A DNA stretch of 64,000 nucleotides from Deltaproteobacteria bacterium (GTDB lineage Bacteria; Desulfobacterota; DSM-4660; Desulfatiglandales; Desulfatiglandaceae). Positions 10,860-16,533 of the stretch are shown piece by piece. How positions within the stretch are numbered: the stretch's first letter is position 1; each line of letters starts with the position of its first letter. Location of the stretch: assembly GCA_021737785.1 (NCBI GenBank), contig JAIPDI010000008.1, forward strand, positions 62,001 to 126,000, given 5' to 3'. The notes beneath the pieces are model-generated. The model searched no databases. It worked only from the letters and a program-made list of their open reading frames with translations, and was not told where the DNA came from. A program made the translations under genes and the position numbers.

Positions 10860-11663
10860 ATGCAGGATGATATCAGGCTACTGATCAATAATATCAGCGT
10901 TGTCTATTCGGATGTCATACAGGTCTTAAAGGGCGTTTCCCTTACCATTCGGGAAGGTCAGGTGGTCTCCCTTTTGGGGAGCAACGGGGCCGGAAAAACG
11001 ACGACACTCAAGGCCATTTCCGGCCTGCTCAAACCTGAAAACGGCAAGGTAACCGAAGGTTCCATTGAATATGACGGCAAACCGGTTCAGAATTCCTCTC
11101 CCGAAGAGATCACGCGGAAAGGGATCATCCAGGTACTGGAGGGACGTCAGGAATTTAAATACCTGACCGTGGAAGAAAACCTGAGGGTCGGCACAGCCAC
11201 TCGATGGGGAAAGCCCTACCAGAAAGATCTGGAGCTGGTTTACAACTACTTCCCCGCCCTCCTGGCAAGGAAAAAGTCGATGGCAGGCTACTGCAGCGGC
11301 GGAGAACTCCAGATGGTGGTCATCGGAAGGGCCCTGATGGCCCATCCGAAGTTGCTCCTCCTGGACGAACCCTCTCTGGGGCTTGCCCCGCTCCTGGTCA
11401 AGGAGATCTTCCAGATCATTCGGCGGATCAACCAGGAGCAGAAAACCACCCTCCTGGTGGTAGAACAGAACGCCAATATGGCACTTCAGATCGCCCATTA
11501 TGGCTATGTCATGGAAAATGGGAAGATCGTCATGGAGAGCGGCGCTGAAGAGCTCAGGCAAAATCCCGATGTAAAGGAGTTTTATTTAGGCACGGCTGCC
11601 TCGGGTGCGCTCAAATCTTATAAGAATGTGAAGGCATATAAACGTCGCAAACGCTGGCTCTAA
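10860..11663 (+). CDS. livF: Liv-type ABC transporter ATP-binding protein (LivF)
   Basis: The 267-residue ATPase has Walker A GSNGAGKTTTLKA, signature CSGGELQMVVIGRAL (cysteine in place of the usual leucine of LSGGQ), Walker B LLLLDEPSLGLAP and a LivF-type H-loop region VVEQNANMALQIA. It is the last gene of the operon, 15 bases after livM. Its C-terminal 20 residues are basic (KNVKAYKRRKRWL), a little longer than typical LivF. It partners LivG. Confidence 0.95.
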   Translation: MQDDIRLLINNISVVYSDVIQVLKGVSLTIREGQVVSLLGSNGAGKTTTLKAISGLLKPENGKVTEGSIEYDGKPVQNSSPEEITRKGIIQVLEGRQEFKYLTVEENLRVGTATRWGKPYQKDLELVYNYFPALLARKKSMAGYCSGGELQMVVIGRALMAHPKLLLLDEPSLGLAPLLVKEIFQIIRRINQEQKTTLLVVEQNANMALQIAHYGYVMENGKIVMESGAEELRQNPDVKEFYLGTAASGALKSYKNVKAYKRRKRWL

Positions 11664-11823
11664 TCCTCTTATCGGCAAGAACCCGGGCGTTTGAAAGGAT
11701 GTTTTTGTTATCACGAAACAGCCTATGCGCGCATGAATATGGATGCGACTCTCCTTTACTGAGTTTCATACAGCCCGGACTCTCCATTGCGCCAATCCAT
11801 CCACCACTGGAGATCGAAGCTAC

Positions 11824-14800
11824 ATGGGTTCCAGCAACCCCCTGCCGGAACAGAGCCTTTGGAAAGAAGGCCCTTTTCAATTCATCAATCCCGATGATTT
11901 TCCATCCTTAGGAATTGATCCCTCATCTGTCCCGTTAGGGACATTCGCCTCTTTCAAACACCCTTCCCAGCTTCGCAGCAGATTCGGCGGCAATGCCTAC
12001 GGATTCGGCCTCTTTGAGGATTACGACCGTCTCAAGCCGAGCGAAATCGAACAGCTTCAGGCCATTGATCTTGATAGCGCCGACCATATTCAAGCCCATT
12101 ATAAGGAACTGAATGAAATCTATCGCAAAATGGGTTTGCTGATCCGGTTTTCCAGCCGTGGAAAACGGTATTATCTCATCCCCGTCCACCTGATGTCCAA
12201 CTCCCTCATCCATGTCACGGCCAAGGTGGATGAAATCAGCAAGACCGTCGGATACCACCGGAAGAAATTCCTTAAGGAGTATCACCGGATCGGCGTCTTC
12301 TGCCGGCCGGACGATCTGATTCTGCAGGAACTGACCTTCCGCCTCAAGGAACATCATTTCATTGTTCTGGATTCCTTTGAAAAATTGTCAAATCTGAACC
12401 GGACACTGGATCTTGTCATATTGCCCAGCGATATGTATGAGATTGTTCTGATGGAGAAATTCAGCCCCCTGGCCCGGGAGGCCCTTTCCAAAAGACGTCT
12501 CGACCAGTATTGCACCTATCTGCTTTGGAAAATCTATAATGTATTAAAGCCGGAGGAAGGCGAGATCTTTATCCTTGCAGACCATCTCACCGCCAGAACC
12601 CACCAAAACGTCGACATGACATTCCATACCGAGCATGAGGAAAAAAATTTCTTATTGTTCACCCATCTTTTCAGCACTCGAAAACGTTATCAGATCAAAG
12701 AACACAGGGTCAGGGTCAGCATCTTCGATCTTCAGAAGTATCTGAGCGCATCTTACGTGGAACAAGAAGGCATCACCCAGTTGCTTGGCGGGAAGTCTTT
12801 TGAAGAATTGTCGCTGGAGGAGATCCATGATCTTCCGTACCTGAATACCCCGTTTGAGGACTGGCCCTTTTTTATTGATCAGGAAAAGGCATGGTCCAAG
12901 CTCCTGGCACCATTTTTTGACAAGGTGTTGCTCAACCCCGTGGTACCCGATCCCGTGAGGAGAGAGTGGAACAAGCGATTTTCGTGCAGGGAGTACTCTC
13001 CCAAGTACATGCTCATCTACCTGGGCCAGAGAAGGCCGGTCAAAACTCCGGTGTCCGGCGTCAAGAAGGAGGTCGCCGATTCCAACCTGATGGGCTGTCC
13101 CATAGAACTGGTGGCGGATTACCGGAATTCATTTGAATACTTGATCCGAACCCTGAAAATTTTGAGGGGGAGACTCAAGAGAGAGGACTACCAGCCCCTT
13201 CCCCAGGTCTTTATCGACCGGTTGAGACTGCCGCTGGAGAGCAAGAGCCGGAGGTTCAGCGCCCTCAATGACGTCATCAAGCTCACCAAAAGAATCCACT
13301 CCCTCGATCGGATACAGGGTTACCTGAACCCTGGCGGGACCGAGGGACCCAGGACCAGACTCTTTGAAAATCTGGAGGCCCTGGCCCTCTTCGGGTTTTC
13401 CCACAACGAACTCAAGGAAATTATCCTCATCGCCCTGGGACACACCGCCATGGGTCGGATCATCTCAGGCAAGGTCACTGAGAAGGCTTTGAAACCGGTT
13501 TCCGATCTGGCCAAAACCTATGATTTGCAGCAGGCCCTCAATCTGCTCCGTTACTGCCGATTGATGACACTGGCCGAAACAGAGGCAGCCCGGGATACGG
13601 AGCTGACCCAAATACAGCTTCAACAGCTTTTTGAACTCTACGAATCCGCTGTCAGGGTCGTTGTCAACCGGGAACTGGATTGGAACCAGCTGCTGGACGA
13701 AAAGATCGCCGCCATGGGCGGCATTCATAACAGGATCGTCCAGAAAATACTCATGATGATGAATTATTTTGAGTTTCTCGACAATTGGGCCGAACTGAGG
13801 AAAAAGGGCCGGATGGAGAAGGAGTCTCTGGCGGATTATGATGAACAGCGGTTGGCAAGGATAGAAAAAGTCATTAACCTGGTAAATAAGATGGAACACT
13901 TCGAAGAGATGTACCTCAACTTCGATCCTCTTCACCTGGCCGTTTTCTACAGAAAATTTCTTGACCTGACATTCCACGGAACGTGGCATCTTTTTGAAAG
14001 AATGACCCCTGAAAATGTCTTTGTGCTTCTCTGGATCGCCGTCAATGTGGCTCAGGGGGAAATCGTCAATTTCAATCCGATTTTGGCTGATGTGGAGACC
14101 CTCGACATGGAAAACCGGGTGAAAAAGATCGAGCAGGACGCGCGGTCCATCAATATCGAGCACCTGAATCTCGCGGTTCTTAAGGAGTTCAGCGATCAAC
14201 TGAAGCGCGAACACATCTCCTTTATTATGGGTACGGGATTTCAGCTGAAGGTATCTTCCCAAACCCAGGCGTTGGACATTTCCTACACGGATGTGGCCCG
14301 AGACATTGAACGCCTAAGCACCCTGGCACAGAGGGTCAAGGGCAGCCTCATTTCAGATATCCCCGTCACCCTTCTGAAACGGCTGGAGACCCTGTTTTCC
14401 AATCTGGAGGCGTTTTTTCAAGGTCACCTCAGGATCATTCATGAAGTAGACCCTGCACCGAGCATCCCTGCCAGGCAGAAGCAGTGGTTTCAGGAAGTGA
14501 AGGAATTAAGAGCCACCCTGAAATCCATCTTCATGACCGTGATGTTCCGTCCTGAATCCCTCTATTCGGATATGGAGGCCCTCTACCGCAATTCGCCCTC
14601 CCTGTTGAATTACCTGATCCCGGAATTTACGGCACTTCAGGATCTCGACCTTTCCGGGCATATCTACTTGACCGCCCCGGTAACAGATTACATCCTCACG
14701 GCAACCCGGAAATATCAGGCCTTGATCACCCACGACAAACAGAGCTACTACGATACGGAATTTCTGCACCGGCTGGCTCAGAAGGAATTCGGCCCGATGG

Positions 14801-16533
14801 CCGCAGGGATCGTGGGCGTCAGCGAATTGCAGCTGGAGACCCTCTGGAACATCCTGGAGAATCTCAAAAGCAATCCGGATCTGTCGGATGCACTCACCAA
14901 GTCATTCATCTTTCAGGATATCGGAAGGATTCCTCACCTCAGGGAAGCGTACAGAGAGGAGATTAACCCGTCGGATCTTGCCGACACCGGTGCGTTTCTG
15001 GTGGACAGGGAAAGGGTTGCAGAGAGATACAATCTCACCCAACAGGGAAAATCCTATCTCATTTTCTTAGTCAAACACCATGGGTTGCTTCACCATATGG
15101 TCCGCGGAGAGGTATCCTTTGCAGCACTCCAATCGGTCATCGTCCCCCTGGATAAGGAGCTCTTCGACGCCTTTCTGAGCTCTTCATTCATTATGCTTTC
15201 CGCGATCAGGGAAGATCTTATCCTTGAGGATCTGGCCATCCGCCTCTTCCAGATACGAACCATGTGCCATCAAATCATCGATGGCGCCACAACCCTTGAT
15301 CAACAGATGAACACTATTTTTGAGGAAAGAGGCGCCCTCTACCATGTCCTGGAGACGTATCAGACCCAGGGACTCCCGGATGGGATTTCATTGGATGAGT
15401 GTCTGGAATCGACTCAATGGAACAAGGCCGAGCCCTCAATGGCCCTCGCGGCCGGAAGGATGATCTTTGCCACAGAGAGGCTCCTGAGGCTGAGAGGGAT
15501 TCGGTATGTTGAATTTCAAGATCTGGTGAACATGATACTGAAGGTCCCCTTGAAATACATTCATAAAAAAAGAAGATTTCACAATGTGGGGTATGCCACT
15601 TTCGAGAAGGAGGTTTACGAGGCATTTCGCATCTACAAGACCCTCCAGGCCTTGTCAGAACCGGTGAGGCACTTCATCCTCGATCAGCTTATCGGAGACA
15701 GGGTGCGTATCTTCGGCTATGAGAAGGTCAGCGGTTTTCTGACCTACCAAAATCAGGTCAAACTCCTCCTGATAGGGCTGCTGGGCATCCGGGAGATCTC
15801 CTCCGCCAGTCTTCCCATTTCACTCAGCTTTCTGGAGATGATAAAGGAAATCGATAAACGCTACGAAGCAGTCAATGAATGCCTTAACAACCTTTCTATG
15901 CGGCAGATCTGGGAAGAAAGATCTCAGACAATCCGTCTCCTGAACGCCAAGAACGGCATCCTCCTCAGAAAAGATAAATTCCCCAACCTCCTTTCAGTGG
16001 AATTTCAGGACCTGATTTCCATCTCCCGGAAAATATCGTATCTCTCATCCATCAATGACCTGGAACAATTGAAAAACTATTTTCATTACAGCTTAAGATC
16101 CCTGAGAACCTATCCCTTCTATACGGATGATTATGAACGGCGCCTGGAGGAGGCGTTTGAAAAAAGGATGACCGAGGTAACCGATATGATTCTGAACCGT
16201 ACGGAAAAGCAGATGGGCCTGGTCAAGGATTTCGAGGACCTGCACAACCTGGTCAGCGATCTCCTGGACCGGTCATGGGATATCGGGCTCTCCCCTGAGC
16301 AAAAGCACCGGCTGAACGACCTTTATGAGATGCGAAAGGATGCATTGAAGCGGGAAAAGCTCACCGAGATTCAAGGCGTCCTTGCAAACATTCAAGACAT
16401 GGAGGAGCTGAAGGGCTACTGGCGGAGCATCAAATGGTATCTTCAGAAAAATCGTCGCTATTTTGGAAAGGAATTCGAGCACCTCATCGCTGAAAAATTT
16501 GATGCGAAGGACGCCGCCCTGGGGCCCGCCTGA
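11824..16533 (+). CDS. Giant protein of unknown function (about 1,569 residues)
   Basis: I cannot assign this protein to a named family. It is soluble with no signal peptide or membrane segment, largely helical and charged. Two faint resemblances stand out. Residues about 190-260 (DLVILPSDMYE, then LKPEEGEIFILADHL) look like the end of a Rossmann methyltransferase fold, but no SAM-binding glycine motif precedes them. Residues about 1025-1095 (FIFQDIGRIPHL, then FLVKHHGLLHHM) resemble an HD phosphohydrolase like that of GlnD, with the first metal histidine replaced by Gln1031. The start at 11824 is preferred over 11743 because GGAG lies 11 bases upstream. It follows livF by 160 bases and ends 8 bases from convergent hdrB. 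Read-through into it from the liv operon is possible. Confidence 0.85.
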   Translation: MGSSNPLPEQSLWKEGPFQFINPDDFPSLGIDPSSVPLGTFASFKHPSQLRSRFGGNAYGFGLFEDYDRLKPSEIEQLQAIDLDSADHIQAHYKELNEIYRKMGLLIRFSSRGKRYYLIPVHLMSNSLIHVTAKVDEISKTVGYHRKKFLKEYHRIGVFCRPDDLILQELTFRLKEHHFIVLDSFEKLSNLNRTLDLVILPSDMYEIVLMEKFSPLAREALSKRRLDQYCTYLLWKIYNVLKPEEGEIFILADHLTARTHQNVDMTFHTEHEEKNFLLFTHLFSTRKRYQIKEHRVRVSIFDLQKYLSASYVEQEGITQLLGGKSFEELSLEEIHDLPYLNTPFEDWPFFIDQEKAWSKLLAPFFDKVLLNPVVPDPVRREWNKRFSCREYSPKYMLIYLGQRRPVKTPVSGVKKEVADSNLMGCPIELVADYRNSFEYLIRTLKILRGRLKREDYQPLPQVFIDRLRLPLESKSRRFSALNDVIKLTKRIHSLDRIQGYLNPGGTEGPRTRLFENLEALALFGFSHNELKEIILIALGHTAMGRIISGKVTEKALKPVSDLAKTYDLQQALNLLRYCRLMTLAETEAARDTELTQIQLQQLFELYESAVRVVVNRELDWNQLLDEKIAAMGGIHNRIVQKILMMMNYFEFLDNWAELRKKGRMEKESLADYDEQRLARIEKVINLVNKMEHFEEMYLNFDPLHLAVFYRKFLDLTFHGTWHLFERMTPENVFVLLWIAVNVAQGEIVNFNPILADVETLDMENRVKKIEQDARSINIEHLNLAVLKEFSDQLKREHISFIMGTGFQLKVSSQTQALDISYTDVARDIERLSTLAQRVKGSLISDIPVTLLKRLETLFSNLEAFFQGHLRIIHEVDPAPSIPARQKQWFQEVKELRATLKSIFMTVMFRPESLYSDMEALYRNSPSLLNYLIPEFTALQDLDLSGHIYLTAPVTDYILTATRKYQALITHDKQSYYDTEFLHRLAQKEFGPMAAGIVGVSELQLETLWNILENLKSNPDLSDALTKSFIFQDIGRIPHLREAYREEINPSDLADTGAFLVDRERVAERYNLTQQGKSYLIFLVKHHGLLHHMVRGEVSFAALQSVIVPLDKELFDAFLSSSFIMLSAIREDLILEDLAIRLFQIRTMCHQIIDGATTLDQQMNTIFEERGALYHVLETYQTQGLPDGISLDECLESTQWNKAEPSMALAAGRMIFATERLLRLRGIRYVEFQDLVNMILKVPLKYIHKKRRFHNVGYATFEKEVYEAFRIYKTLQALSEPVRHFILDQLIGDRVRIFGYEKVSGFLTYQNQVKLLLIGLLGIREISSASLPISLSFLEMIKEIDKRYEAVNECLNNLSMRQIWEERSQTIRLLNAKNGILLRKDKFPNLLSVEFQDLISISRKISYLSSINDLEQLKNYFHYSLRSLRTYPFYTDDYERRLEEAFEKRMTEVTDMILNRTEKQMGLVKDFEDLHNLVSDLLDRSWDIGLSPEQKHRLNDLYEMRKDALKREKLTEIQGVLANIQDMEELKGYWRSIKWYLQKNRRYFGKEFEHLIAEKFDAKDAALGPA

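Follow-up and report, generated by a model that had tools for sequence, protein, structure and literature searches.

GlnD carries an N-terminal nucleotidyltransferase domain (GGxGRxEL...SDxDL) and an HD domain, the intact dyad of which provides its uridylyl-removing activity (PMC4285133). In class II tRNA nucleotidyltransferases, the helices of the body and tail hold the acceptor and T arms of tRNA (PMC3925840). We analysed a 64,000-nucleotide stretch of a deltaproteobacterial contig, hereafter the window, which encodes a giant protein that resembles these enzymes over a helical and HD-like region and resembles class I SAM-dependent methyltransferases over another.

Results

The giant gene runs on the plus strand from an ATG at 11824 to a stop at 16533 and encodes a product of 1,569 aa (183 kDa, pI 6.4). 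A GGAG sequence at 11809-11812 lies 11 bases 5′ of this ATG. The open frame extends from 11743 to 16533, but because relatives begin at the equivalent of ATG 11824, a start at 11743, though in frame, is unlikely. Neither a signal peptide nor a membrane helix was apparent in the product (highest 19-residue hydropathy mean 1.66), which appears to be cytoplasmic. The source genome holds one copy of the gene, and no paralogue of the protein was found within it. The whole protein had no match in Pfam, NCBIfam, PHROGs, PADLOC or the PDB sequences (among the anti-phage defence models of PADLOC, one relative matched only Cas3, at E 0.49). The first-pass annotation of an unassigned family therefore held in every protein-family library searched, and no profile search assigned the full length to a known family, GlnD included, likeness to which was limited to the HD module. 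A literature search for giant or dead HD proteins returned nothing relevant.

Full-length orthologues (29-85% identity) occur in several Desulfobacterota/Thermodesulfobacteriota lineages, including the cultured Desulfacinum hydrothermale, D. infernum and Desulfocarbo indianensis. An orthologue was present in 47/61 near relatives (34/40 genera) and in 23/247 genomes drawn across the phylum, mostly at full length and as a single copy per genome; fragments of the gene in certain draft assemblies are consistent with broken contigs. Of 297 genomes searched with a profile, 35 had a match, but at least 6 of these (E 2e-5 to 0.009) were HD domains of other proteins (4 GlnD, 1 CCA-adding-type enzyme and 1 unnamed HD protein). 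Using one conserved peptide with tblastn confirmation, we located 58 loci among 84,980 species genomes, a scan by a single peptide pattern that divergent members could escape. Their titles were deltaproteobacterial or Thermodesulfobacteriota, apart from one that was merely 'Proteobacteria' and one Aminicenantes exception. The latter is a 4.5-kb contig labelled Candidatus Aminicenantes (L056), whose member is 56% identical to the window protein and groups inside the window's order; the label is probably a binning error. Both the 'Myxococcota' and the 'Aminicenantes' labels in our tree were read as naming or binning artefacts, given 'Deltaproteobacteria' titles and the 4.5-kb contig, respectively. 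The tree resolved three main groups: Desulfarculaceae, Desulfacinum with allied MAGs, and the window's order. Shorter family members (L038, L039 and L042-L046, from genomes G131 and G163) have frames of 1,253 and 1,147 aa, do not have parts of the middle region and are 22-25% identical to the window protein.

The gene is under purifying selection, with a whole-gene dN/dS of 0.154 against the nearest relative (85% identical). By residue range, dN/dS was 0.08 for 1-125, 0.11 for 126-405, 0.13 for 406-880, 0.26 for 881-1160 and 0.19 for 1161-1490. Because an orthologue is found in 47/61 relatives and 23/247 phylum genomes at a dN/dS of 0.15, the giant gene is more than a chance frame; the open frame, shared start, wide orthologues and purifying selection bear out the large ORF that had been called from the letters alone.

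We then examined the predicted architecture using AlphaFold models built from alignments of 50 and 45 family members, which covered residues 1-900 (pLDDT 85.4, pTM 0.80) and 560-1569 (pLDDT 85.2, pTM 0.76). The most conserved stretch of the family, with invariant columns, is at residues 30-65 (11911..12018, plus strand), which bear the motif GID..D.P.GT..A..HP....SR.GGNAYG.GL.E. Within this motif, residues 51-56 and 60-65 were modelled with pLDDT <50, and the stretch is a probable binding loop. Residues 63-120 (12010..12183, plus strand) are modelled as three helices and a beta hairpin, with N97, R108, G113 and LIP118-120 conserved. By eye, this part could be winged-helix-like, a likeness that no fold match confirmed. 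A profile of the N-terminal part had no meaningful match among PDB sequences.

The methyltransferase-like stretch suspected at first pass was recovered as a predicted class I SAM-methyltransferase fold, of Rossmann type, at residues about 125-405 (12196..13038, plus strand). This region matched class I methyltransferases (VIA Z 14.3, rmsd 3.1 over 155 residues). Nearly all of its Foldseek rows were methyltransferases at high probability, although the best E was only 4e-3. Its sequence profile found nothing meaningful among PDB sequences. Class I SAM-dependent methyltransferases have a glycine-rich SAM motif, whereas the giant family does not: GxG of motif I occurred at residues 154-173 in 0/50 members.

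Much of the remainder is accounted for by an internal duplication, in place of the earlier statement that no repeat structure explained the protein's size. Residues 458-833 (13195..14322, plus strand) align with residues 998-1409 (14815..16050, plus strand) at an hhalign probability of 92 and E 7e-7, against E 0.24-0.6 for controls. The duplication spans about 375-410 residues and is so diverged that it is visible by profile comparison only. The first copy carries the motifs HGTGHL, LLW and NFN, with H540, R545, G549-K550 and E585 conserved. Its residues 522-616 align weakly with the final part of the GlnD HD domain, keeping the same register (E 0.0023, probability 13). At the far end of the protein, residues 1491-1569 (16294..16530, plus strand) form a basic helical region (pI 9.0).

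The second copy overlaps a helical part and HD-like domain at residues about 825-1157 (14296..15294, plus strand), identified by both fold and profile matches. Its closest fold was PDB 3wfq (Z 13.9 over 240 residues), with 3wfo-3wfs as the top entries, deposited as 'Poly A polymerase' or 'tRNA processing enzyme'; lesser matches were Ppx/GppA (Z 9.9 over 144 residues) and then phosphodiesterases (Z about 7). The same 3wf entries topped a PDB search with a sequence profile of residues 900-1165 (E 0.013). GlnD profiles matched residues 901-1132 at E 1.1e-10 and 1.4e-9, pairwise values that, like those for the duplication and its first copy, come from a one-profile search and are to be read against controls, for which reversed or column-shuffled GlnD gave E 0.17-0.77. 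The HD fold is thus present in both predicted structure and profiles, but the superfamily's metal-binding set H...HD...D is not intact. At the dyad position, Q1031-D1032 (14914..14919, plus strand), an alignment of 45 members had Q in 34, Y in 10 and R in 1 in place of the histidine (H in 0/45). H1085-H1086 (15076..15081, plus strand) align with the HH of GlnD 'FLVRHHLLM' and are retained in 30 and 41 of the 45 members, respectively. The earlier hint of a degenerate HD region, drawn from these same four residues, is borne out by their alignment to the HD motif and later HD-domain histidines. The catalytic dyad, and with it the metal site of the second copy, appears to be lost in every member compared, as read from alignments of a diverged domain.

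How far does this likeness extend to any one enzyme? With GlnD, the giant protein shares a pre-HD and HD module (residues 901-1132) and a large multi-domain build, but the GlnD nucleotidyltransferase domain was not found, the full GlnD profile aligned over the pre-HD/HD part only, and the intact dyad of GlnD is replaced by Q, Y or R at the histidine in 45/45 members. For the C-terminal glutamine-sensing ACT domains, there was no Pfam match among 18 members, and the GlnD alignment ended before them. PF08335, the GlnD family domain, was found in two genes elsewhere in the genome and not in the giant gene. With these two genes present and the nucleotidyltransferase not found, identity with GlnD was rejected, and because of the same two genes the giant gene is no substitute for GlnD. 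With class II tRNA nucleotidyltransferases and bacterial poly(A) polymerases (3wfo-3wfs), the protein shares the helical body and HD domain at residues 825-1157, but it is three times longer and has lost the dyad. Fold matches start at residue about 174 of 3wfq, and the nucleotidyltransferase head was not among the ranked matches. The Ppx/GppA phosphatases share a C-terminal HD-like helical domain, but this match is weaker than that to the nucleotidyltransferases and the remainder of Ppx/GppA is unmatched. A separate 456-aa HD protein (L120, 633-1997, minus strand) has an intact HDIGR motif, adjoins an HDOD-type gene and occurs in 7/8 genomes of family f44; its Pfam HD match (E 0.061) is below cut-off. 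By eye it seemed akin to the giant protein beyond the HD domain, a kinship we rejected since profile comparison supports the HD part only (E 1.7e-5).

In the window, the giant gene sits, as first described, between livF (10860-11663, ABC_tran) and hdrB/hdrC/hdrA-like genes, which lie on the minus strand from 16542 and converge with it. A livF-like gene was directly upstream on the same strand at 17/28 loci of the window's order (gaps of -7 to 191 bases) but at 0/26 in other clades, and an hdrB-like gene was directly downstream at 9/21 in the order versus 0/19 elsewhere. A general tie to liv or hdr, as the first-pass placement might suggest, therefore failed outside the window's order, and the liv link is local. 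Within the gap between livF and the giant gene, no promoter-like site was found and a terminator-like pattern was only weak. No conserved partner gene common to all clades was found, so the neighbourhood indicates no pathway. Upstream of the giant gene in three members of the order without livF there (L049, L054 and L063) is a gene pair that by eye encodes electron-transfer flavoprotein subunits (clusters c4 and c6), accompanied in L049 by a TetR-type regulator.

Discussion

We lean, with a little short of even confidence, towards the giant protein being a cytoplasmic pseudo-enzyme that acts as a putative scaffold or ligand-sensing regulator. This reading follows from the loss of the parent active sites from the methyltransferase and the second HD copy in a protein that as a whole is nevertheless under selection. 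The dead folds would serve as binding surfaces, and neither the metal-dependent nor the SAM-dependent chemistry seen in the parent enzymes would be expected. Because the N-terminal motif and the first copy are the most strongly constrained, these are the likeliest contact sites: a ligand or partner would be contacted by the loop near the N terminus (HP...GGNAYG) and by the first copy (through H540, R545, K550, E585, HGTG and NFN), and the second copy would mainly support that contact. The family does, however, retain numerous polar residues, invariant or almost so, that resemble an active or ligand site (H46, N57, E65, N97, R108, H540, R545, K550, E585, N751 and D823), so new catalysis is possible.

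Accordingly, a serious if unlikely candidate is an active enzyme, in which the N-terminal module and first copy form a new catalytic site and the other domains are structural. The highest conservation and low dN/dS do fall in residues 1-125 and 406-880, with their invariant H, N, E, R and K, but they contain no known active-site motif, and the N-terminal part has no meaningful PDB chain match and a motif that is partly modelled as disordered. Alternatively, the nucleotidyltransferase-like helical bodies could clamp a tRNA-like RNA without polymerising it. Methyltransferase folds are also found in RNA modification, which would suit such a role. So would the closeness of residues 825-1157 to the C-terminal region of class II tRNA nucleotidyltransferase/poly(A) polymerase. 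In those enzymes, tRNA is gripped by helices of the body and tail (PMC3925840). The matched part, however, includes an HD fold also present in GlnD, Ppx/GppA and cyclic-nucleotide phosphodiesterases, none of which is known to bind RNA. The HD region itself is acidic, with a pI of 5.4, and the nucleotidyltransferase head was not found; we consider RNA clamping improbable. A giant enzyme or RNA clamp of a new kind in sulfate-reducer lineages would have the invariant N-terminal GGNAYG module and first degenerate HD copy as its working site, and what it catalyses or recognises would differ from what the parent methyltransferase, tRNA nucleotidyltransferase or GlnD does; this we regard as distinctly unlikely. 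Very doubtful is the reading in which the gene is co-transcribed with livF and its product regulates or assists the adjacent branched-chain/acyl-CoA cluster (liv, acyl-CoA ligase, ETF, Hdr). The livF-like gene upstream at 17/28 loci of the order, other acyl-CoA-type genes near some other loci and the weakness of the terminator-like pattern here would fit it, but in the other clades (0/26) the neighbours are unrelated and the gene is still full length.

If the giant protein is a pseudo-enzyme, as we tentatively favour, its architecture would be unusual, combining two diverged HD-bearing bodies of the tRNA-nucleotidyltransferase/GlnD lineage with a dead methyltransferase. Since it occurs in cultured Desulfacinum and Desulfocarbo strains, the protein is open to testing. 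A 183 kDa protein that is kept full-length under selection in several lineages of sulfate reducers, yet carries no name in the libraries searched, exposes a gap in what is understood of environmentally important bacteria.
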